Shown here: positions 22,518 to 34,209 of the stretch, piece by piece
Layout of the letters: every line of letters begins with the position of its first letter
Position numbering within the stretch: position 1 is the stretch's first letter
IMG/VR virus record: IMGVR_UViG_3300005529_000017
Coordinates: 1 to 43,219 of that record
Source: a virus
Direction: 5' to 3' (one strand)
Length of the DNA stretch: 43,219 bases
Translations under genes and position numbers: made by a program
The notes under the pieces: generated by a model
Seen by the model: only the letters and a program-made list of their open reading frames with translations
What the model was told of the DNA's origin: nothing
Database searches by the model: none

Positions 22518-22628
22518 ATGAAAAATTCTCACCGGAAAAACAAAGGGCTGCCCGGCGGCGGTGAGAGTAACCACACCGACCGCAAAGCGCTGGAGCGCTC
22601 GGGCAGCCGATTTGGAAAGAGTAACTAA
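22518..22628 (+). CDS. 36-residue basic leader gene
   Basis: ATG at 22518 is about 10 nt downstream of the TATAGT box, with no ribosome-binding site, so the mRNA may be nearly leaderless. The product is small and basic (MKNSHRKNKGLPGGG, then NHTDRKALERSGS). Its TAA overlaps the next ATG (TAATG), a sign of translational coupling. The RNA can fold: GGCTGCCCG (22546) pairs with CGGGCAGCC (22600), enclosing a small AGCGC/GCGCT hairpin. It may serve as a coupling or attenuation leader rather than a functional peptide. Confidence 0.55.
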   Translation: MKNSHRKNKGLPGGGESNHTDRKALERSGSRFGKSN

Positions 22629-23218
22629 TGAGCACCGCGAAGCGAAAGAAAATACAACCGAAGGACACACCACAAAATAACCCTCTAAACGCACTTCACT
22701 TGCCCGCCACTTTCTGGGCCGATACCCTCGTTGCTGCAAGTGTTCCCCATTCCACAAACAAACTTATGAAAGCAAAAAAACAAAATAAAAAAGGGGGCAA
22801 GCGAGCCACGGGGGCAGTGGCCGAGGACATAATTCGGACCACAGTCAGCTACACGACCGGAGTAGGAGAAATGGCGAATGTCATGATGAAACTACGCGGC
22901 TTTGGTAACAACTTCAGCGTGTTTGTTTCTTCGCTGATCCGCGAAGACTACGAGCGCACACTGCGCTTATACAATGTGGAAGACACCCAGGTGGACGCCA
23001 CGGCACGGGAAATCATCGCGCGGGAAATTAAGAAAGCCCATGACCATTCCCAGCCGGGGGACGCGAAGGCGGCGCTTCTGGAAGCGATTTTGCAAAACGC
23101 CGGATCGCCTTTGCGTGTGATTCAAGGCTTTCAGCCAGTTGCTCGCACTGGCGGCGGGACAACTTCTGGAGCTTCCCGAGAATCTCGACCGCAACATAAT
23201 CCGCCGATGGTTTCTTAG
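22628..23218 (+). CDS. Second RHH-like DNA-binding protein, 196 aa
   Basis: Starts at ATG 22628 behind GGAAAGAG. The first 70 residues are basic and probably disordered. Residues 70-115 look like an RHH domain (RTTVSYTTGVGEMANVMMKL, FGNNFSVFVSSLIREDYERT). A charged helix follows (AREIIAREIKKAHDH). The last 40 residues read poorly and overlap an antisense frame at 23028-23222. It lies just before the integrase and ends in TAG, in frame with the integrase ATG across 24 open codons. A regulator of integration or lytic genes is likely. Confidence 0.55.
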   Translation: MSTAKRKKIQPKDTPQNNPLNALHLPATFWADTLVAASVPHSTNKLMKAKKQNKKGGKRATGAVAEDIIRTTVSYTTGVGEMANVMMKLRGFGNNFSVFVSSLIREDYERTLRLYNVEDTQVDATAREIIAREIKKAHDHSQPGDAKAALLEAILQNAGSPLRVIQGFQPVARTGGGTTSGASRESRPQHNPPMVS

Positions 23219-23222
23219 ACAT
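23028..23222 (-). CDS. Possible antisense gene, 64 aa helical protein
   Basis: The minus-strand ATG at 23222 opens a 64-residue frame whose first 50 residues read as a natural coiled-coil-like protein (ADYVAVEILGKLQKLSRRQ, CEQLAESLESHAKAIRRFAK). It overlaps the 3' end of the plus-strand RHH-like gene by 190 nt. The operator-like site at 23268 lies upstream in the same orientation as the sites at 5217 and 12637 relative to their genes. No clear ribosome-binding site. The frame could be extended to 23270. Confidence 0.4.
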   Translation of the reverse strand: MSKKPSADYVAVEILGKLQKLSRRQCEQLAESLESHAKAIRRFAKSLPEAPPSRPPAGNGHGLS

Positions 23223-23267
23223 ATGAAAAACTGTGCAAAACTCCTTGCGCACTGTCAAACCGTCATT

Positions 23268-23282
23268 CATACTTTGTAATAC
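23268..23282. promoter_or_regulatory. GTATT-N5-GTATG operator-like site (site B)
   Basis: Plus strand CATACTTTGTAATAC, identical over 18 bases to the site at 12637. It ends 8 nt before the integrase ATG, so a bound regulator would cover the ribosome-binding region or a promoter for the integrase. An imperfect inverted repeat, ACTGTGCAA...TTGCGCACTGT, lies just upstream (23231-23256). Confidence 0.6.
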
Positions 23283-23290
23283 CTGAGCAT

Positions 23291-24721
23291 ATGAGCACTA
23301 CAGCCCAACTCAGTGACGCGTTGAAACTCACGTTTGAATTTCAGGGAGCTGAACGCGCCCTAGCCAAACACCCGCGCGTCGTCCGCGACGTCAAGCTCGG
23401 CAAAATAACCGAGCAGGACGCGCTGGCCACACCGTGGTTTATCCGCATCTCCGTGGACGGAAAACAAAAACCATTCAAGCTTGCCGTGGACAACGACGCC
23501 GCGATCCGCGCCGCCGTAGCTCACCTGAAGGGCAAGCAGAACAAGCCGGACGAGTGGAAGCAATTCCTTCAGGACCGCGCCGCAAAAAACGGTATCACCC
23601 TGGGCGCGCTGGCCACGGAATGGAAAGCCGCTGGCCTGCCCAATGAGTCCGGCCACCCGCGCGATAAGGACGCGCGCGCCACCGTGGAAGCCGAACTGGA
23701 CTTGGCGATGGCGTGGTGGGAAAACAAACCCGCCGCCGCCGTCACGCCCGGCCAGCACATGGCGTTTGCCACTTGGAAGCGCTCACAATGCAAAGAGAGC
23801 GGACGCGGCACCGGCGACCGCGCGGTGGATAAACAACTCGCGGCGCTCAGTTGCATGTGCGCTTGGGCCGTAGCGTGTGAAAAGCTCAGCAAGAATCCGT
23901 TTGCTGAGCGGCAGCAATTCCAGGATTCCAAAACCGTCCAGCATTGCCACGAATTCCAGCCGGACACCGACGAGGACTGGCACAAGGTGCTCGGCTGGTT
24001 TTGGTCCTACACGTTCAACCAAGCCGCGCTGAACAAATCCCAGAACGCCGAGCAGCTCACGCTGCGCTTGCGCGTAGCCGGGGCGTGGCTGGCCTGGACC
24101 GGGCTCGTTGGTTTGCGCCCGGAAGAACCGCGCCACCTGTTCCGCTTCCAGGCGCTGAAGGAAATCCCCACCAACCCCGCCAAGCTCAAACCCGGCACCA
24201 TCTTTCCCACGCGTGACGGCTCCCTGAAGATGCGCGTGGAGCGGGACAAGAACGGGCAGAACCCATACGTATTGCTGCATCCGGCCGCCAAGGATTTTCT
24301 GAACCACTGGCACCGCTGGCTCGCGGCGAATATTCAGCCGGTCCAGAACACCGGCTTTGCGCTGGCGCTGTTCCCCATGCCGGACGAGCCCACGCGCCCA
24401 CTGTTCCAGGACAAGGGCGAATTTCCGCTGCTCAATAAGTGGCTTCACCGCGCGTGCCGCACGATGAACCTTTCCACGCTGAAACCCAAAGGCTGCGGAC
24501 GCGCCTATTATGTCCGGGTCCGCCGCAGTGACGGCATGGAAGACAATATTATCGCGGGCGAGTTGGGCCAGACCACGGACGGCGCGCTGATCCGCAGCAC
24601 CTATGGCGATGGCGATGACATGCGCGGCAGCGGGCTCTTTGACTGGCTGCCGAAAGAATCCAAGCCCGCGTGGCACGCGCTGCTTGACCACACCCGCAAC
24701 ATTTTGCCCATCGCGTTATGA
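23291..24721 (+). CDS. int: Tyrosine recombinase (phage integrase), 476 aa
   Basis: Catalyses site-specific integration and excision between attP and the host attB. The C-terminal domain shows the catalytic pattern: R276 in TGLVGLRPEE, a YYVR segment at 406-409 (Arg of the HxxR box, His replaced by Tyr), LGQTT at 425-429 in place of LGH, and the nucleophile Y438 in RSTYG. The N-terminal 220 residues contain arm- and core-binding regions. It is longer than the lambda enzyme (356). The likely attP lies 4 kb downstream at 28850-29124, not adjacent to the gene. Confidence 0.8.
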   Translation: MSTTAQLSDALKLTFEFQGAERALAKHPRVVRDVKLGKITEQDALATPWFIRISVDGKQKPFKLAVDNDAAIRAAVAHLKGKQNKPDEWKQFLQDRAAKNGITLGALATEWKAAGLPNESGHPRDKDARATVEAELDLAMAWWENKPAAAVTPGQHMAFATWKRSQCKESGRGTGDRAVDKQLAALSCMCAWAVACEKLSKNPFAERQQFQDSKTVQHCHEFQPDTDEDWHKVLGWFWSYTFNQAALNKSQNAEQLTLRLRVAGAWLAWTGLVGLRPEEPRHLFRFQALKEIPTNPAKLKPGTIFPTRDGSLKMRVERDKNGQNPYVLLHPAAKDFLNHWHRWLAANIQPVQNTGFALALFPMPDEPTRPLFQDKGEFPLLNKWLHRACRTMNLSTLKPKGCGRAYYVRVRRSDGMEDNIIAGELGQTTDGALIRSTYGDGDDMRGSGLFDWLPKESKPAWHALLDHTRNILPIAL

Positions 24722-24948
24722 GCAAAGTTAACAGCCTGCCCCGCTATATCACGCTTGTGAAGGCGCTGAACGAGCTGCGGAAATGGGTGGACGGCTGCGT
24801 GCTGAATTCATGCAGCCCGAAGGAAATCCGCGACACCTACGCGGAGCTGGCGCGCGCCAGCACAAACGCCCAGCGCCTTGTGCGCCGCGCTGAACGCGCC
24901 ATCGTCAATCGCGCCTGGAAGAAACACAAAAAGGAGCTGGGGCTATGA
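24718..24948 (+). CDS. Small basic helical protein, 76 aa
   Basis: ATG overlaps the integrase TGA (ATGA). The product is helical and basic (LVKALNELRKWVDGCVLNS, then YAELARASTNAQRLVRRAERA and a Lys-rich end). It could be an integrase accessory or a DNA-bending protein by position and charge, but no family was recognised. Confidence 0.6.
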   Translation: MSKVNSLPRYITLVKALNELRKWVDGCVLNSCSPKEIRDTYAELARASTNAQRLVRRAERAIVNRAWKKHKKELGL

Positions 24949-25136
24949 AGTGCGAAGGCTGCCAGAAATCTACGCGCGGTTACGATTTGTTTGATTACTG
25001 CGAGCACTGTTCCAAGAACCTTTGTGAACAGTGCATGACAACGGGGCGGTGCCTGGACGCGTCGGACCATAAGCACTGCCCAGCCGAACAAGGGGAAGAA
25101 GACAACAATGGACCTGGACCTGACTCTAAACACTGA
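24945..25136 (+). CDS. Treble-cysteine zinc protein, 63 aa
   Basis: Three CxxC knuckles (CEGC, CEHC, CEQC) and further Cys and His residues (GRCLDASDHKHC) in 45 residues suggest two cross-braced zinc sites, RING/B-box- or FYVE-like in spacing. The acidic tail follows. It overlaps its neighbours by ATGA and by 29 nt. The architecture recalls protein-interaction zinc domains rather than DNA-binding ribbons; this is inference. Confidence 0.6.
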   Translation: MKCEGCQKSTRGYDLFDYCEHCSKNLCEQCMTTGRCLDASDHKHCPAEQGEEDNNGPGPDSKH

Positions 25137-25920
25137 AGATTTAACCCACGCAGGCGAAGGACGGTTCGCTGAACCGCCACCGAAGAAAACCATTGAACCG
25201 GTGCCGCACCCCGCGGCACCGCCTGCTTCGGAGAACAAGCCGGAACCTACACCCGCACCGCCTGCGCCGCCCGCACCGTCCGCGCCCGCTCCCGGCACCC
25301 TCACGCTGAACACGCTGAACGTTCCACGCACCGGTTATGTCTGCGACGTTCCCGGTTGCAGAAAATTCGGTAAGAAATTCTCCTCGCAGCACGCGCTTTT
25401 GCAGCACCGGATCGCCCGCCATGGCGCGCTTGCTCCAGCCACAATTCCGCAGTCAGTTGAACCAACCACAACACCAACAGGAGAAACCGAAATGCCAAAG
25501 AAATACAAATGCGACGAATGCTCACGGGAATTCAATTCCGCCCACGGGCTGAACACCCACAAACGGCGCGCGCATGCGAAGGGCAAAGAGAAGCCCGAAG
25601 CCTACGAGTGTCTGGAATGCGGCGTGCAACTCCCCACCTACGGCGCGATGGCCGGGCATATTTCGCGCGCTCACAAAAAAGGAATGATCGGCACTTGGAA
25701 ACCCGCCGCTGAGAAAAAACCTATGACCGCACCCACACCACGCACCGAGCGGATCGCCCCGCGCGCCGCTGATCCCCACGCAACCCACACCATCCTCGCC
25801 ACGGGGCCAAGCGGCTCCGCGTCCATGTCCGGCCCGCTTGACTTTGCCTTCGAAAGCGCGAGCCGCTTGTTTGCGATGGGATTTACCAAAGTTGAAATCG
25901 AATCCATTAAAATGGGATAA
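25108..25920 (+). CDS. Three-finger C2H2 zinc protein, 270 aa
   Basis: A Pro-rich, probably disordered region (residues 22-62) is followed by three classical C2H2 fingers: C79-x4-C84...H100-x4-H105; C135-x2-C138-x12-H151-x4-H156; and C168-x2-C171-x12-H184-x4-H189. Each has the F and L/M hydrophobic core positions. A Thr/Pro linker separates finger 1 from fingers 2-3. The C-terminus ends in a helix (ESASRLFAMGFTKVEIESI). Tandem C2H2 fingers are rare in bacteria and phages. DNA or RNA binding is the likely role. Confidence 0.75.
   Translation: MDLDLTLNTEDLTHAGEGRFAEPPPKKTIEPVPHPAAPPASENKPEPTPAPPAPPAPSAPAPGTLTLNTLNVPRTGYVCDVPGCRKFGKKFSSQHALLQHRIARHGALAPATIPQSVEPTTTPTGETEMPKKYKCDECSREFNSAHGLNTHKRRAHAKGKEKPEAYECLECGVQLPTYGAMAGHISRAHKKGMIGTWKPAAEKKPMTAPTPRTERIAPRAADPHATHTILATGPSGSASMSGPLDFAFESASRLFAMGFTKVEIESIKMG
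25479..25494 (+). promoter_or_regulatory. Strong internal ribosome-binding site before in-frame ATG
   Basis: AGGAG at 25479-25483 stands 8 nt before an in-frame ATG at 25492, inside the C2H2 gene. Initiation there would give a 142-residue form with fingers 2 and 3 only. The site is stronger than those of most genes in this window. Confidence 0.5.
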
Positions 25921-25922
25921 TT

Positions 25923-26711
25923 ATGAGCACCGAAACATTGGAACAAAAGGCCACCGATCGCATTCGGTGGGAAGCCATTGAAATCGACCGCGTGGCGCGG
26001 GCGTTCATTGAAGAACGCAAGCGCAGCCCGTTCGCGCCTACCACGGCGCTGCTGGAAGCGGCCCAAAAGCAGGCGCTGCCGGATGACCGCCAGCGCCCCA
26101 TTGGATCAGTCACCGCCATGCCCGCGCTGGAGCAGCGCATCGCGACGCTGTGGGTGACGTTTGTAAACCAAAAGGACCCGCCGCCGGAAGTCATCCACGT
26201 GCAAACGCAATCCCCGCCGGACTACGTGGAGCTGACAAACCGCCTGGACGCCGCGTCTCTCACCGCGATGCTGGTTACCAAGCTCACCAAGGAAGTGGAC
26301 ACGTGGAAGCCGCTGCTCGTTCAGCTGGCGGGCAAGGAAGTGCATATGGGCGCGCCGCTGAATCCGCCGGTGTCCATTCTGGCCGCCGCGTCCAAAAAGC
26401 AGGAGAAGCCCAACGTTCTCATTATGGGTCCCACGGGCGACCAGTTCCGCCACATTGAAACCAAAGTGCGGGAACAGGAAATTCCCGTCGACTTGCAGTT
26501 CCTGGACAAGGACAAACCGCGCAATGGCGTCCGCGTCAAAACGGATTTTGTCATCGCCACGCGCTTCATTCAGCACGGCCTGGAAGAAGCCATTAAAACC
26601 AAAGTCCCCAAAGGCTGTTACTTCTTCATGGACGAGCAAAGCGGCATCACTGCCGTGGTCCAGAAATGCCGTGACATCGCCAGCATGTGCCGCCCGCGTA
26701 TGGCCGCCTGA
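25923..26711 (+). CDS. Protein with DUF2325-like C-terminal domain, 262 aa
   Basis: The N-terminal 150 residues are helical (RIRWEAIEIDRVARAFIEERK, SLTAMLVTKLTKEVDTW). Residues 165-255 form a Rossmann-like unit: NVLIMGPTGDQFRHIETKV, FLDKDKP, TDFVIATRFIQHGLEEAI, then CYFFMDEQSGITAVV. This order resembles DUF2325 proteins, whose function is unknown but which occur with regulatory and mobile-element genes. It starts 2 nt after the zinc-finger gene, suggesting joint function. Confidence 0.5.
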   Translation: MSTETLEQKATDRIRWEAIEIDRVARAFIEERKRSPFAPTTALLEAAQKQALPDDRQRPIGSVTAMPALEQRIATLWVTFVNQKDPPPEVIHVQTQSPPDYVELTNRLDAASLTAMLVTKLTKEVDTWKPLLVQLAGKEVHMGAPLNPPVSILAAASKKQEKPNVLIMGPTGDQFRHIETKVREQEIPVDLQFLDKDKPRNGVRVKTDFVIATRFIQHGLEEAIKTKVPKGCYFFMDEQSGITAVVQKCRDIASMCRPRMAA

Positions 26712-26713
26712 TT

Positions 26714-27058
26714 ATGACCACTGAACTTGAACCCAAACCCGCCGCGCGGCGCGGGCGTGGCCCCGGACGGCACCGCATTGAAAACGGCCAACCCAAATGT
26801 TTGTATCCGCCGTGCAACAATCCGCCCAAGTGCCGCGGACTTTGCGATGGCCATTACAACACGGCCCTAAGGCTCATTAAGAAAGGGCAAGTCTCCTGGG
26901 ATCAGCTCGTGGCCGCCGGCCGCGCCAATAACGCCACCGCCATCACCGGCGGCCGGCGCGCGCCCCTGCGCGATTGGTTCCTGGACGCCGTGGCCATTTC
27001 TGCGGCCCAGAATACCCAGCAAACTGGGGAATCCAACCCGCCACCGCCACCGCCATGA
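26714..27058 (+). CDS. Zinc-knuckle protein, 114 aa
   Basis: A basic N-terminus (PAARRGRGPGRHR) leads into CLYPPCNNPPKCRGLCDGHY, a Cys/His cluster common in phage and bacterial small zinc proteins linked to HNH-like or DNA-binding folds. A helical part follows (WDQLVAAGRANNA), then a Pro-rich tail. It overlaps the next gene by ATGA. The specific function is unknown. Confidence 0.6.
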   Translation: MTTELEPKPAARRGRGPGRHRIENGQPKCLYPPCNNPPKCRGLCDGHYNTALRLIKKGQVSWDQLVAAGRANNATAITGGRRAPLRDWFLDAVAISAAQNTQQTGESNPPPPPP

Positions 27059-27366
27059 AACGCACACATTTTGTGCGGCGCGATGTTTGCCCCAGCTGCG
27101 GCGGTGCCGTGGACAGCTGCGACAACCTATCCCAGGCGCGCCCGCCACGCCCTGGGGACTTCGCCATATGTTTGAAATGCGGCGCAGCGAACCGCTTTGA
27201 CGCCGCCATGAAACTGGTTACCGCCACCGCTGAGGACCTGCGGGAAATTGATCCCGCGAACCGCCGCAAACTGCGGGACGCGGAGAAAATAGTAATAGCC
27301 GCGCGCGCCGTCCAAGCCACGCTGGGCGTCCACAATTGCATCCGTGTCTTACGCGAAACCAACTGA
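27055..27366 (+). CDS. Zinc-ribbon protein, 103 aa
   Basis: CPSC at residues 12-15 and CLKC near 39-42 form a zinc ribbon. The C-terminal half is helical (AEDLREIDPANRRKLRDAEKI). ATG at 27055 overlaps the previous stop. One of the series of CxxC proteins in this operon; no specific family beyond the ribbon. Confidence 0.6.
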   Translation: MKRTHFVRRDVCPSCGGAVDSCDNLSQARPPRPGDFAICLKCGAANRFDAAMKLVTATAEDLREIDPANRRKLRDAEKIVIAARAVQATLGVHNCIRVLRETN

Positions 27367-27370
27367 ACAC

Positions 27371-27607
27371 ATGACAGACGCGGAACTGGAACGCAAGATG
27401 CCGAGCATTCGCTGGCGCGAGCCCCTTCCGGTGAGCGTCACGGAGGACCCAACGGACCCAGATTCACCGGTTATTGCGTCCGGCTATTTGTGCCGCTATT
27501 GCCTCGCGCACCACGGGCTGCTGGCAATGGAAGTTTCCAGACTGCCGCAGACGCTGGAGCAATTCCGCGAACACCTGAAACAGGAACACAAAATTATTTT
27601 AGAATGA
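27371..27607 (+). CDS. C2H2-like small protein, 78 aa
   Basis: ATG at 27371 (MTDAELERKMPSIRW). The C-terminal part has CRYCLAHHG, then a helix and FREHLKQEHKI, so two Cys and two His are placed as in a C2H2 finger with a long inter-pair spacing. ATGA overlap with the next gene. No family was recognised beyond the ligand pattern. Confidence 0.55.
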   Translation: MTDAELERKMPSIRWREPLPVSVTEDPTDPDSPVIASGYLCRYCLAHHGLLAMEVSRLPQTLEQFREHLKQEHKIILE

Positions 27608-27876
27608 GCGTTCAGCGTTACCACGTTTGCGATTACCCGAATGTGCTGTGTGATTTCCACACCCTGCCAGAACCCGGTTACGTGGTCTGCGTTCACGCCA
27701 TGGCAGGCGCACCCGTCCACGGCGTTGACCCAGCCACGGAAACCGACATGGGGATCATTGCTTGCACCGCGTGCGGTCCGCGCTTACAAGCGGACGAAAT
27801 GCCCCGCGAAGAGTTTAAAAGAACATTCCAAACCGTCTGCGCCGGATGCTGCCGCCTGAAGGGCTGGATTAAATGA
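27604..27876 (+). CDS. Cysteine-rich hypothetical protein, 90 aa
   Basis: The product contains HVCDYPNVLCDFHTL, VVCVHAMAG, CTACGPRL and CAGCCRLKG, in total enough Cys and His for two zinc sites. ATGA overlaps on both sides. No family was recognised. Confidence 0.6.
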   Translation: MSVQRYHVCDYPNVLCDFHTLPEPGYVVCVHAMAGAPVHGVDPATETDMGIIACTACGPRLQADEMPREEFKRTFQTVCAGCCRLKGWIK

Positions 27877-28184
27877 GCGAACCCGATGTCAACGTCCTCG
27901 TCTGCCCGCCGGTTGAGATTCACAAGCAACGTGAAATTGGAATTATGGCCATGACCCCTGCGCCCGGCGCGACCGAAACCGTATGCCAGAGTTGCGGCGT
28001 CAAAATCTGGATCGGCCCGCTTCAGCGCGCCAAGCGGGAAAGCGATCCGCGATTTCAAGCGTGGTGTTTTGCCTGCGTGTTAAAGCACGCCAGCCCGGAA
28101 GACTTTACGGAAATAAAGAACCTCGGCGGCCGTGGCGGCAGTTACTTGCTTGACCCCACCCAGGTGAAATTGAAACGGAAATAA
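27873..28184 (+). CDS. Zinc-ribbon protein, 103 aa
   Basis: CQSC near residue 38 and CFAC near 65 form a ribbon around KIWIGPLQRAKRES. The N-terminal 25 residues (DVNVLVCPPVEIHKQREIG) are of a different character, and an internal ATG (residue 25) is possible as the true start. The C-terminus is basic (KLKRK). Confidence 0.6.
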   Translation: MSEPDVNVLVCPPVEIHKQREIGIMAMTPAPGATETVCQSCGVKIWIGPLQRAKRESDPRFQAWCFACVLKHASPEDFTEIKNLGGRGGSYLLDPTQVKLKRK

Positions 28185-28186
28185 AC

Positions 28187-28435
28187 ATGGACCCGCGCAC
28201 CGCAAAAATTATTGCCGAGGCACATGGCCGGTATTTGAAGGACCGTTTGCCGAAGGGCTACGGCTTCTTTCTCATGATTGTTCCCGAGCCGGAAACCACG
28301 AACTGGCATACCTACGTTTCCAACCTGCCGCGCAAAACCAGCAAGCGGGTGATGCGTGAATTTATTTACCTGGATTCCCAGGCCGATCCAAAGCTGCCGG
28401 TCCAGGTGATATTTAAAAGAAAGGCGAAGCCATGA
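28187..28435 (+). CDS. Small hypothetical protein, 82 aa
   Basis: The product is helix-beta-beta-helix-beta in pattern: AKIIAEAHGRYLKDRL, GYGFFLMIVPE, YVSNLPRKTSKRVMREFIY and VQVIFKRK. This is a commonly seen phage protein pattern of unknown function. The start is 2 nt after the previous stop; ATGA overlap with the next gene. Confidence 0.65.
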   Translation: MDPRTAKIIAEAHGRYLKDRLPKGYGFFLMIVPEPETTNWHTYVSNLPRKTSKRVMREFIYLDSQADPKLPVQVIFKRKAKP

Positions 28436-28608
28436 CCACGCACCCACTTGAATGCGAAAGCCCGCGCCGGATTATCACCGTTTACCGAGATCCCGCGACC
28501 GGCTGGATTAACGCTTGCAAAGTCCGCTGCCACTGCGGGCAGGTGTATATCGTCTACTTCCCGCCCATGCCCACCCCGCCGCCCAGCTCCGCACCCGCGC
28601 CCAAATAA
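28432..28608 (+). CDS. Small Cys-containing protein, 58 aa
   Basis: ATG at 28432 overlaps the previous TGA (ATGA) and TAA at 28606-28608 is 3 nt before the next ATG. The product has RRIITVYRDPATGWINACKV, then CHCGQVYIVYF and a Pro-rich end. The coupling on both sides supports it as a gene. Confidence 0.6.
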   Translation: MTTHPLECESPRRIITVYRDPATGWINACKVRCHCGQVYIVYFPPMPTPPPSSAPAPK

Positions 28609-28611
28609 TTT

Positions 28612-28845
28612 ATGCCCACTCACCCGTTTAAATTGGACGCCCTAGTGGCCGCGCTACTGACTGCCGATCCAGATGCAAAAGCCGTCTTGCTTGTCATAGT
28701 CCACCCCGATAAGCTGGTTGAACCGGTATATGCAGCGCGGAAGGGTGAAGACATGGACAGCTTCGTAAACTTGGCGGACGTGCTGCGGAACGCAGCGGAC
28801 AAAATCGAAGCTGCGCACAAAGCAGCAGACGGAGAATTACCATGA
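28612..28845 (+). CDS. Small hypothetical protein, 77 aa
   Basis: The product alternates helix and strand (LDALVAALLTADPDAKAVLLV, KLVEPVYAARKGED) and ends with a helix (NLADVLRNAADKIEAAH). Natural composition, no family recognised. ATGA overlap with the weak frame that runs into attP. Confidence 0.6.
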   Translation: MPTHPFKLDALVAALLTADPDAKAVLLVIVHPDKLVEPVYAARKGEDMDSFVNLADVLRNAADKIEAAHKAADGELP

Positions 28846-29344: not shown

Positions 29345-29581
29345 ATGGACAACCGTGTAATCACTTTTGGGCTCCCCATCCTCGTGCTTGCGGTCGGGCT
29401 CACCGCCTTAAGCTTTATTTCGGAAGGGCGCACACACGGCCGCTTTGAAATCTTCACGGACCGGCAAAGCGTCATCCTGAAATTGGACCGCGCCAGCGGC
29501 CAAACGTGGATGCTGATAAAAGCCGAAGGCACCAACGTGCCCGCCGCCTGGGTGCCGGTGCCGGACGTGAACCCGCGCTAG
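29345..29581 (+). CDS. Small membrane-anchored protein, 78 aa
   Basis: ATG at 29345 (MDNRVITFG) with an immediate hydrophobic segment, residues 7-25 (FGLPILVLAVGLTALSF). A polar domain follows (GRFEIFTDRQSVILKLDRA). One N-terminal transmembrane anchor with a small soluble domain. It ends in TAG at 29579-29581, which interlocks with the TAG of the convergent giant gene. A late-expressed lysogenic conversion or exclusion role is conceivable; not determined. Confidence 0.6.
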   Translation: MDNRVITFGLPILVLAVGLTALSFISEGRTHGRFEIFTDRQSVILKLDRASGQTWMLIKAEGTNVPAAWVPVPDVNPR

Positions 29582-32500
29582 CTGCTCAGCTCCCCCAGAA
29601 ACTTCGCCTTGTCCGTCATGGTGGCGGATTCCGATTTCAGAACTTTTTGCACCATGATTTGCTGGATCGCCTGCCGCTCCTGCGGGCTGGCCAAACGCCA
29701 CACGCGCATGGCGTCGTCCACGCTGTTCAGGTGAAACACCTGGAACTGGAACGGGGTGTATTTCAACCGATCAATCATCGCCTGGACAGCTTCCGGGTTC
29801 AGCTTCCCGTTGGCGATCGCTTCGGCAAAGTCCTTGGTTTTCTCCGGCTGATCGTTCCGGATGCCGCGCACGGCGTCCTTAATCATCTTGCCCTTATCAA
29901 ACTGTTCTTGCGTGAGCGGCGCATCGCCCATGCGTTCCGCCATCAACTCCGCGGCCAGCTCCTGGGCCGGGCTCATGGTCATGCGCGTCGGCACCGGCGT
30001 GATGCCAAAGAACGGCATGATTTGCTTATGGAGCGGCGCGGCATCGTCCCGGAGTTTCATCACGCCGGACACGCTGAAGGGCACAAACTGTTTGGCCGCC
30101 CACGCGGCCACTTCACTGCCCTGCTGTTGGAGCGGGTCATCGGGGTTCCGGATGCGGACGTCGTAAAAATCTTTGTTCTGCAACAAATCAAACATGAGGC
30201 TGCCCATCGGGTTCAAGGAATGGGCGAAGCTCGTCACCGGATGTTTGCCATAGGCGAGCACGTCCTTGACGTAGCTGGGAAAGTTCAGCCGGACCGGGTT
30301 GCCGTTGGCGTCCGTTTCCCCGGTCTGCGGCATAAAGTAATCCATGCCGCGCGGCATCCGGCGCGTGTAAAGCCAGTGAACCATCCCGCCCAGCAGTCCC
30401 ACAACCATGGGCAGCGCCATGGTGTAAGCCATGCGGTGGGTGAATTCCGGCCGCTGGCCGCTCAGCGCCGCCTTGCCCGCGCGCGCGGTGTCCACGGCCG
30501 CGCCCAGTCCTTCCCGGTATTTCCCCAGCTGCCAGCCGTAGGCGCGGAAGGACAGCAACGCGACGTCCCGCAGGTAACGATTGTAAAACAAATTGTCATA
30601 GACGATTTGCCCCATGCGGTTGTCCACGCTGTCCCACGCCTTGCGCATGGCTTCACGGACGTCGGCGGGATCAGCGCCCGGGCCGAGCCGTTCCAGCTCA
30701 CGCTTGGCCATGTCCGCAAACACGCCCAGCTTCTGGCGCGGCACCACGTATTCCATGATGGGCCGCAAGCTCTGTTCAAACAACGCAAACGGCGCGTTCC
30801 ACAGCGTCCGGAAATCGGACCCCTCGAAAAGCGCATCCTGATCGCGCGCCTCGTGAAAGGCGCGCGTCATGCGCCGGGTAAATTCCGTGCTCCAAAATTT
30901 CTCCTGCCCCACCCGCCCGCCACCCAGCTCCAGGGCGTGGGCGATGGCTTGAATGTCCGCGCTTTGGCTGCCGGGGTTCAGGACTTCCGCGCGCACCTTC
31001 GCGCCGCGCATAATGTTGGTGACGGGAGAAAACGGAACGCTCGCCACCGTTTTGGCGGCGCGGGCAAAATCCCCGTGCATGGCGTCCTCGATGCCAATGG
31101 CCAACCGGCTCGTGGCCGCGTCCAGGGACGTGAAGCCCAGGTGAAAGGCGGACAATCCCAGCTGAACGCCGTTCAGCAAATTGGAAACTTCCCGGAGCCC
31201 GCGATACCACAACTGCGGATTCAGCCCGGGCGACAAATAATTATTCACCACGCGCGCCGCGGCGTCCGGCATCATGTAGCTGCCCATTTTCACAAGGCCG
31301 CCCACCGGAATTTCCGCCGTGGCCGTGCCCAGGCGTAGCGTGGGCCGAATGTCGTAAATGCGATGCAGCTCCGGGTGATGGTCCAGGAAGATTTCAAATT
31401 CCTTTTTCACCGTGGGCGCAACTTCCGCCATCCGCTCCGGCGCGTGAACGAACGCTTGCAGAATGACGGCCATGCGTTCGGGCGCGGAATGCACGTAACG
31501 CTTTTGGCTCGGGCCGGGCGTTTCCCCTTCATAACGCAGCGCCGCCAGCGCGTGCATTTCCTTTTCCAGCGTTTGATTCAGCGCCCAGTTGTGCATCCGT
31601 TCCCGCAGTTCCGGGTAACGGTTATCGAGCACGTGGCCCAGCTCATGCCAGAACACGTCCGGCGGGCCGCCGAACTTGGTGACGATCCGCTCGGTGCCGG
31701 GGACGCCTTCCTGATAACGGGCATAACCCCAGCGCTGGCCGCCGAGCCGCGCCAGCCGCTCGTGCGGGACGCCCAAGTCGCGCAGCACTTGCAACGTGGC
31801 TTCCCGCATTCCGGCGTCAAACGCCTCTTTCACTTTCACCACCGGCGGCCCGTAAACTTCAAAGGCGCGGTCGTTCACTTTGGTGTAGCCGTCCGGAGAT
31901 TTCTGGAACGCGTGAACGAACTTCAGCAGCCCGGCCTGCTTCATTTCGTTAATGAATTGATGGGCCAAAATGTAGCGCTCCACTTCCCGCTTTTTCAGCA
32001 GCCACAAATCGACCGGGTTATCATGGACCGGTTTGAGCCCGGCGGCCAAGCCTTCGCGCGTGAGTTGGTGAACGCGCTGTTTCAGAAAACTTTTCGGCCC
32101 TTCCAGCGGGCGCTTGGACAGCACGGCGGCAAAGACCTGCTTGGCCTTTTCCGGATTGTCCCACATATGCGGGAAATAATTCTCGATGAACCGTTGCAGC
32201 GCGCCGGTGCCCAGCGCGTGGATGCGGTCCAGCCAGTCCCGATTTTGCTGGCGGAACACGGCAGCGGCTTCGCGTTCGCGCGGGCTCAGGTGCCGCAGGT
32301 CCCCGCCTTCATACGCATCGATGAACGCCAGATTACGCGGCAGCGGCTGGGCCGGATCATACTTGTAATCTTTGGCCAGCGGCGTGCGATCGAAGTCCGC
32401 GCGGAATTCACTGAGCGCGTGCTCGGCGCGCAACATTTCATTCGCAAACTTGGCCGTGAGATGGCGCAGCACATTGCCCACGTAACGCGCGTGCGGTCCC

Positions 32501-34209
32501 ACCGTCTGCGGGGCCACGTTCGCGCGGATGCTATTCACCGCCTGAACCAGCTCCGAAACCCGGCGCGGCTCCAGCGGCGCACGGGCGGACGTGGGCGCGG
32601 TGGACGGCGTGGCCGGTGCCGGGGCTGCGGATCGGCGCGCCGCACCGCCGCCCATACTGTGCGTGACTTCCCGGCCGGTTTCCGCGTTTTCTGGTTTTTG
32701 GGGCGCTTTGCCGGAATTCGTTAACGTTGCGTTTGGCGCTGGCGCGCTTTTCGCGGAGGGGTTGGGCTCCGGAGATGGGGGCGGATTCGCGGTTTTGGCG
32801 CTAGCTGCTTCCGGCTGAGCTTCCGGCGGAAACGCCGCATCGCGCAATCCGCGCGCCTGTTCCCGCGTCATCTGCGCCTTCGGGAACAGCTCTTGAATTT
32901 GGCGGATAGTCCGCGCGTTGTTACGGCGCACGGTTTGCACCGCGGTTTCCCGGTCCTCGGCCGGAGTCTCCGGCACCACCGGCTTCTGTTTGGGCGCGGG
33001 TTCCGGCGGCAGCTGCGGCTTGGCCCAGTCCGGAATTTCCGAGCCTTCCTTCACCGGCGTGGGCGGGGGCTGCTCCGGCCCCTGGGGCTTGGCGTATAAG
33101 CTAGCCAGCTCCGCTTGTTCGCCAGTCTGCTCCGCTTCACTCAGCGGCTGCGGTTCGTTGGAGTCATGCGGATGCTCGTAAACGGACGGCGGCGTTTCGT
33201 CCGTTTCTTCCCAGGTTGGCGCGGCTGCGTCCTGCTCGGCAAACTTGGCCGCATCGTCCGGGAACGCGGCGTTACGCAGCGTCCGCGCTTCTTCCCGGCT
33301 CAATTCCGCTTTGGGGAAAAGCTCCTGAATGGCCCGCACCGTCCGCGCGCCCTTGGCCCGGACTTCTTCAACGGCGCTCATTTGCCGTTCCGGCTCCGGC
33401 GCAGTTTCCGGCACGACCGGACGCTGCATTTTGCGCGGGACATTCGGCCCCAAAACCTTTTTGCCTGCCGTGGGGATAATGGCGTTTTCCACGATCGGCT
33501 GGCCGCCCTGCCGCGCGATGGTTTCCAAGTCCACCTGATCCAGCGGCGCGCCGTGTTCTTGCAGCACGCGGGCAATCGCAGCGTGCGGAGATTCCAACGG
33601 ATGGCCGAAGCCTTCGTAAAGCCCGTGCCCGGCTCCGGCGGTCATGCCGGTTTCAATCAAATTGCCGAGCACCTTGTTCCAGGCTTCGTCCGTGTCTCCG
33701 TTTTTAAAAAGGTCCTGAATTTCCGCAATCTTCCCGGGTTCATCCTTGGCGTATTGGGCCACGAAGTAACCCAGCAACAATTTGCCCGCCGTGGTTTCCG
33801 GTCCGGGCGTGAACGGGTTCGGCGCGGTGAGCGCCAGCGGGATCATGCCGGGATCGCCGCCGGGCGGACCGGCCAGCAATCCCTTTTCCATAAGGGACCG
33901 CTCGGCGTCGGTGGGGCCAAAGAGAAAGCGGCCCACGTGCGAGCGGCGGAATTCCTTCCACAGTCCGGAATCCATTTGCTGCAATTGCGGCACGTCCGGA
34001 TATTGCGGCAGTTGCAGCGCCTGGGTCGCGTAGAAGTCATGCGCCGCACGCGCCAGATTGTCATCGGCGCTCGGCAGCGGCGTCACGGTGGAAAACCGGG
34101 AGTTGTCCGGCGGCGCAGCCACGGCCGCCGGTGCGTCCGTGGTGTCATCCCACGAAGGCGCGGCGTCCGCCACCGTCTCGTCCCAGGTGGGCGGCGCTTC
34201 AGTTGGCAT
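29578..34209 (-). CDS. Giant internal virion (ejection) protein with HExxH, 1543 aa
   Basis: By size and position (last of the internal protein genes) it corresponds to T7 gp16-type ejection proteins. Residues 1-50 carry WDET/WDDT motifs and disorder. Residues 279-320 and 423-464 are two copies of a 42-residue unit (IQELFPKA core). A Pro-rich region lies at 470-545. The middle is helical and contains HELGH at 855-859, a zinc-metalloprotease motif, with E911 a possible third ligand. The C-terminal 500 residues are helical, with a hydrophobic stretch near MALPMVVGLLGGMVHWL. A large polyvalent protein combining ejection and protease functions is inferred. Confidence 0.7.
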   Translation of the reverse strand: MPTEAPPTWDETVADAAPSWDDTTDAPAAVAAPPDNSRFSTVTPLPSADDNLARAAHDFYATQALQLPQYPDVPQLQQMDSGLWKEFRRSHVGRFLFGPTDAERSLMEKGLLAGPPGGDPGMIPLALTAPNPFTPGPETTAGKLLLGYFVAQYAKDEPGKIAEIQDLFKNGDTDEAWNKVLGNLIETGMTAGAGHGLYEGFGHPLESPHAAIARVLQEHGAPLDQVDLETIARQGGQPIVENAIIPTAGKKVLGPNVPRKMQRPVVPETAPEPERQMSAVEEVRAKGARTVRAIQELFPKAELSREEARTLRNAAFPDDAAKFAEQDAAAPTWEETDETPPSVYEHPHDSNEPQPLSEAEQTGEQAELASLYAKPQGPEQPPPTPVKEGSEIPDWAKPQLPPEPAPKQKPVVPETPAEDRETAVQTVRRNNARTIRQIQELFPKAQMTREQARGLRDAAFPPEAQPEAASAKTANPPPSPEPNPSAKSAPAPNATLTNSGKAPQKPENAETGREVTHSMGGGAARRSAAPAPATPSTAPTSARAPLEPRRVSELVQAVNSIRANVAPQTVGPHARYVGNVLRHLTAKFANEMLRAEHALSEFRADFDRTPLAKDYKYDPAQPLPRNLAFIDAYEGGDLRHLSPREREAAAVFRQQNRDWLDRIHALGTGALQRFIENYFPHMWDNPEKAKQVFAAVLSKRPLEGPKSFLKQRVHQLTREGLAAGLKPVHDNPVDLWLLKKREVERYILAHQFINEMKQAGLLKFVHAFQKSPDGYTKVNDRAFEVYGPPVVKVKEAFDAGMREATLQVLRDLGVPHERLARLGGQRWGYARYQEGVPGTERIVTKFGGPPDVFWHELGHVLDNRYPELRERMHNWALNQTLEKEMHALAALRYEGETPGPSQKRYVHSAPERMAVILQAFVHAPERMAEVAPTVKKEFEIFLDHHPELHRIYDIRPTLRLGTATAEIPVGGLVKMGSYMMPDAAARVVNNYLSPGLNPQLWYRGLREVSNLLNGVQLGLSAFHLGFTSLDAATSRLAIGIEDAMHGDFARAAKTVASVPFSPVTNIMRGAKVRAEVLNPGSQSADIQAIAHALELGGGRVGQEKFWSTEFTRRMTRAFHEARDQDALFEGSDFRTLWNAPFALFEQSLRPIMEYVVPRQKLGVFADMAKRELERLGPGADPADVREAMRKAWDSVDNRMGQIVYDNLFYNRYLRDVALLSFRAYGWQLGKYREGLGAAVDTARAGKAALSGQRPEFTHRMAYTMALPMVVGLLGGMVHWLYTRRMPRGMDYFMPQTGETDANGNPVRLNFPSYVKDVLAYGKHPVTSFAHSLNPMGSLMFDLLQNKDFYDVRIRNPDDPLQQQGSEVAAWAAKQFVPFSVSGVMKLRDDAAPLHKQIMPFFGITPVPTRMTMSPAQELAAELMAERMGDAPLTQEQFDKGKMIKDAVRGIRNDQPEKTKDFAEAIANGKLNPEAVQAMIDRLKYTPFQFQVFHLNSVDDAMRVWRLASPQERQAIQQIMVQKVLKSESATMTDKAKFLGELSS

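Follow-up and report, generated by a model that had tools for sequence, protein, structure and literature searches.

The DNA analysed here is the 43,219-base IMG/VR record of an environmental virus, IMGVR_UViG_3300005529_000017 (positions 1 to 43,219, 60% G+C), the whole of which is called the window. On its + strand, at 25108-25920 with the stop included, lies an open reading frame (ORF) for a protein of 270 amino acids (aa), assigned from its motifs and Pfam matches as a C2H2 zinc-finger protein. An earlier note on this DNA had described three tandem C2H2 fingers in it, and this was confirmed: the ORF encodes a real protein with three such fingers. It passes the Pfam gathering cut-offs of zf-C2H2_6 (PF13912; 38.2 bits against a cut-off of 25, E 1.3e-9), zf-C2H2_4 (PF13894; 33.5 against 27) and zf-C2H2 (PF00096; 28.5 against 25.2). 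The protein has exactly six cysteines, every one inside the three motifs, and both cysteine and both histidine ligands are complete in each motif, a pattern with which each finger would be expected to bind zinc. When the residues were shuffled 200,000 times, no motif appeared in 198,777 shuffles, one in 1,222, two in one and three in none; three motifs in one protein are not expected by chance.

The protein begins with a Pro/Ala-rich segment (residues 21-62, 25168-25293) which is probably disordered, with an AlphaFold2 (AF2) predicted local distance difference test score (pLDDT) of about 39-57. A Pro-rich stretch, described earlier as a linker, is present, but it lies for the most part ahead of the fingers, at residues 22-62. 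Finger 1 (residues 79-105, 25342-25422) has the irregular spacing C-x4-C-x15-H-x4-H, with an extended knuckle (C-x4-C-x2-FGKKF) three residues longer than canonical. A copy of finger 1 without three knuckle residues scores higher against the profile than the native finger, which agrees with an insertion in the knuckle. Finger 2 (residues 133-156, 25504-25575; motif at 135-156) and finger 3 (residues 166-189, 25603-25674; motif at 168-189) both have the canonical C-x2-C-x12-H-x4-H, so the proper Cys/His spacing that had been claimed holds for these two and not for finger 1. Finger 2 is the best profile match of the three. The hydrophobic core residues, also claimed, sit at positions shared with eukaryotic fingers, but finger 3 has a weak core (L in place of F, M in place of L); its profile score is weak, and it gains little score against a profile of phage fingers. 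The protein ends in a beta-beta-alpha-beta domain (residues 226-267, 25783-25908) which the earlier note did not contain; AF2 predicts it confidently already from the single sequence (pLDDT about 90), and it has no match in Pfam or PHROGs.

Two AF2 runs were made, one of the full-length protein as a single sequence and one of residues 75-196 in an alignment with 25 finger segments from phages. With the alignment the mean pLDDT was 81, the fingers reached about 90-95, and each of the three was predicted as a short hairpin followed by a helix. The beta-beta-alpha zinc fold, proposed as a check on the idea, is thus predicted in three of three fingers with the alignment; in the full-length single-sequence run the fingers stayed below pLDDT 50 and were not resolved. 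Many of the aligned segments cover finger 2 and few cover fingers 1 and 3, whose predicted folds therefore depend more on the protein's own sequence. In a Foldseek search of the PDB the first-ranked matches were DNA-bound C2H2 proteins (ZFP91, Kaiso, CTCF and Zif268; best E 1.4e-3), with marginal E-values that are probably due to the flexible joining of the fingers. The best PDB match by sequence was the designed finger protein Aart (2i13, E 1.8e-8). A comparison of the full-length model, most of which is of low confidence, with viral structures gave nothing convincing.

Eukaryotic C2H2 proteins (the Pfam zf-C2H2 clan; Aart 2i13, Kaiso 4f6n and Zif268 1zaa) share their ligand pattern with fingers 2 and 3, and their hydrophobic core positions and beta-beta-alpha fold recur in the phage protein, the fold as predicted. 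Unlike them, the phage protein has small contact residues, an irregular finger 1 and a weak finger 3. Its linkers, 29 residues between fingers 1 and 2 and 11 between fingers 2 and 3, are not the TGEKP-like linkers of about 5-7 residues by which eukaryotic tandem fingers are recognised. Its helix contact positions carry S/T at -1, G/A at +3 and Q/T/G at 6 across the three fingers, and not the base-contacting residues at -1, 3 and 6 of a eukaryotic-type transcription factor. The protein had been called eukaryote-like, a description that finds no support in the details: beside the linkers, the small residues at -1 and +3 are frequent in phage fingers, and the extended knuckle is shared with two other phage proteins (below). 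The phage-type helix and knuckle, together with the phage context, speak against a eukaryotic origin of the gene, a judgement made without a phylogeny.

Two known prokaryotic or viral systems were also compared. AFV1p06 of an archaeal virus has a classical finger that was shown to bind DNA (PMC3541406). It is likewise virus-encoded with a classical zinc-finger fold, but it has one finger, Glu as the fourth ligand and an archaeal host, where the phage protein has three fingers with C2H2 ligands (PMC3541406). The Ros/MucR proteins are also prokaryotic C2H2 proteins that bind zinc and DNA, and are defined by a single finger, a 9-residue spacer and a larger domain (PMC9779718). The phage protein, with three fingers, 12- or 15-residue spacers and a different spacing and predicted fold (PMC9779718), falls outside that family.

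Viral contigs were scanned with one restrictive degenerate DNA pattern for [YF]-x-C-x2-C-x-K-x-F-x5-L-x2-H-x4-H. It matched at least 120 stretches, and 119 of these hold an open frame with a C2H2 motif, giving at least 119 phage-contig ORFs; the pattern preselects C2H2 sequences, so this figure serves as a tally rather than as independent evidence. Among the matches listed, eight ORFs contain more than one strict motif (two or three). Contig L087 encodes a protein with four fingers under a looser motif, which passes the Pfam C2H2 cut-offs. Among 112 distinct phage fingers, S/T occurs at -1 in 58, G/A at +3 in 58 and both together in 35; the combination is found in all three fingers of the window protein. 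The extended finger 1 knuckle, as C-x4-C-x2-F-G-x-x-F, was found in four viral-contig stretches. Two of these, in L051 and L154, belong to C2H2 proteins with two fingers; in the remaining two frames no second finger is seen. L051 and L154 share the phage setting, the long linkers and the knuckle with the window protein, and differ in having another N-terminal domain. The L087 protein shares the setting and the long linkers, and its gene lies near portal- and capsid-like ORFs. By eye, both the Pro-rich segment and the C-terminal domain are missing from all three, and their genome positions differ from that of the window gene. As a separate observation, the N-terminal domains of L154 (4661-5143, - strand) and L051 (6459-7016, + strand) look alike, and both genes lie inside virion-gene-like clusters.

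No relevant work on tandem C2H2 proteins in phages turned up in the literature searched, which excludes most subscription journals. Phage zinc fingers are a widespread population, undescribed within that literature. Since phage C2H2 proteins are common, the window protein is not a class of one; it is an orphan member of a common population and less exotic than first thought.

Two scans with the helicase of the window found 19 viral loci at 63-78% identity. The helicase is also 73% identical to one on a genome contig of a Pedosphaera metagenome-assembled genome, from which we infer a Verrucomicrobiota host; the virus is probably a phage of that phylum. Single-protein searches of phages, plasmids, viral contigs and genome contigs gave no full-length homologue of the C2H2 protein, the two contig scans being able to detect close relatives only. 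A search of the helicase-kin phage records, many of which are fragments, found no C2H2 gene. Three kin loci added later gave a few matches to a looser C2H2 motif, which were not judged singly, and the closest kin, L020, ends within a homologue of 23291-24721, with the C2H2 position outside its coverage. Among Verrucomicrobiota genomes, zf-C2H2_6 matched one of 388. Of 320 genomes from the Verrucomicrobiota order, 13 gave weak matches to the C2H2 protein, several of which carry in-frame stops or lie outside the fingers. As a side observation, L031 (72-1811, - strand) and L032 (40-2034, + strand), on contig C429 of genome G288 from the Verrucomicrobiota sample, each have a long ORF in which many C2H2 fingers follow one another in tandem. 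The N-terminal regions of the L031 and L032 ORFs look similar, and a fucosidase-like ORF follows the one on L032. Such polydactyl proteins would be unusual in a bacterium (L031/L032, G288), and contamination is possible.

The C2H2 gene sits in a + strand run of mostly small ORFs (22628 to 28845), which points away from the primase and helicase genes. Upstream on the same strand are a gene for a 476 aa protein (23291-24721), whose homologue in L020 was mentioned above, a 76 aa ORF overlapping each of its neighbours by 4 bases (24718-24948), and a 63 aa Cys-rich ORF (24945-25136; 8 Cys or 12.7%, three CxxC), whose product has no significant Pfam or PHROG match. The last of these runs 29 bases into the C2H2 gene, and 2 bases past the C2H2 stop begins the + strand ORF of a 262 aa protein (25923-26711). 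This overlap and gap suggest translational coupling, and the gene and its neighbours may be co-expressed as an operon. The G+C content at third codon positions (GC3) is 0.63 in the C2H2 gene, below that of 23291-24721 (0.78) and 25923-26711 (0.76).

The earlier note had taken the neighbours to be almost all zinc proteins, which overstates the case: CxxC occurs in five of the 12 other + strand ORFs listed from the 22.6-28.9 kb module. It had also called the product of 25923-26711 DUF2325-like, for which Pfam gave no match up to E 10 with this protein or two homologues, and none up to E 1 with the homologue in kin phage G016. Homologues of 25923-26711 occur in G016 and in two genomes from the Verrucomicrobiota order; one of these two genomes has a homologue of 28187-28435 nearby, so part of the module recurs. 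The same gene set, which the earlier note proposed to look for in related phages, did not show up there: a motif search detected no C2H2 protein beside these three homologues, and searches with 25923-26711 and 23291-24721 gave no further viral contig. The G016 homologue has an N-terminal HTH_Tnp_1 domain (helix-turn-helix, HTH), and a homologue with this domain is recorded on L026 (6248-7261, - strand); the window protein is without it. Two further ORFs of the window may be recorded: an 87 aa ORF (27344-27607, + strand) with one CxxC and a distant H-x4-H, possibly a further irregular finger, without a Pfam match; and a 1543 aa ORF (29578-34209, - strand) for which neither Pfam nor PHROGs gave a match at E 0.001.

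Based on this evidence, the explanation that we favour, with middling confidence, is that the C2H2 protein serves a tailed phage, probably one infecting Verrucomicrobiota, as an accessory DNA-binding protein. Each of the three fingers would bind zinc and contact nucleic acid, most probably double-stranded DNA. The long flexible linkers and small helix contact residues suggest that they would be loosely coupled, with modest sequence specificity. On phage or host DNA the protein may then work as a regulator or as an architectural factor, with the C-terminal domain perhaps contacting a partner. Nucleic-acid binding appears the most plausible role because the top fold matches are DNA-bound C2H2 proteins; that much of the proposed nucleic-acid-targeting module stands, but the finger gene is not accompanied elsewhere by a constant set of neighbours. 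DNA binding is also in keeping with the Pfam scores, the placement of the six cysteines, the predicted beta-beta-alpha fold, the Aart match, the phage-type helix and knuckle, the divergence of the run from primase and helicase, and the HTH domain on the G016 homologue of the next gene.

Several points weigh against it. Finger 2 alone is a strong match, since finger 1 is irregular and finger 3 degenerate; RNA and proteins are further ligands of the C2H2 fold; small contact residues would disfavour strong sequence-specific recognition; and no homologue of the whole protein was found by which to judge its conservation. Finger 2 also just exceeds the cut-off of the dsRNA-binding Pfam family zf-C2H2_jaz (22.9 against 22.6 bits). 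This last match, together with the long linkers, the small contact residues and the separate, well-predicted C-terminal domain, leaves some room for an adaptor whose fingers bind double-stranded or structured RNA or a protein partner, the activity coming from its C-terminal domain or from the product of the next gene. We regard this as possible but doubtful; the DNA binders at the top of the structural matches speak weakly against it, since DNA binders dominate solved C2H2 structures. A bolder version of the DNA-binding reading, a phage-encoded modular multi-finger transcription regulator acting on specific host or phage DNA, with fingers diversified independently of eukaryotic multi-finger proteins, seems rather improbable.

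It is unlikely that the protein is an accessory factor of recombination, an excisionase or directionality factor for 23291-24721, as its position in the run of overlapping genes and the integrases in the accessory region of kin phages G016 and G007 might suggest. The integrase-bearing kin have no detectable C2H2 gene. The 476 aa protein looks like a divergent tyrosine recombinase by eye only: it had no tyrosine recombinase match in Pfam, PHROGs or a PDB profile search and no significant similarity to the kin integrases, results that do not confirm the identification. The anti-host module of the earlier note, here an anti-host or anti-defence effector against host DNA, RNA or protein, fits an orphan gene undetected in kin, in a region of small genes, with a GC3 below that of its large neighbours. 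Nothing points to such a role, however: no host target emerged, and Pfam, PHROGs and NCBIfam gave no toxin match (the defence library PADLOC was not searched), so we give it little credence. A decayed or domesticated nucleic-acid-binding part of an HNH or Vsr-like phage nuclease, whose relatives often have C2H2 fingers, is very improbable: residues 83-172 weakly match phrog_1271 (HNH endonuclease, E 0.0014) and many phage C2H2 ORFs join an N-terminal finger to a longer part that is nuclease-like by eye, but profile searches found no nuclease domain in the protein, and all its zinc ligands are kept.

The window protein itself is an orphan whose function is read from sequence and predicted structure. 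Classical C2H2 fingers were termed practically absent from bacteria in 2013 (PMC3541406), yet one restrictive pattern is enough to find at least 119 phage-contig ORFs with them. If it is true that such tandem arrays bind DNA, phages would hold a sizeable and little-studied pool of small zinc-finger proteins, and this pool would be useful for tracing how modular zinc fingers evolved.
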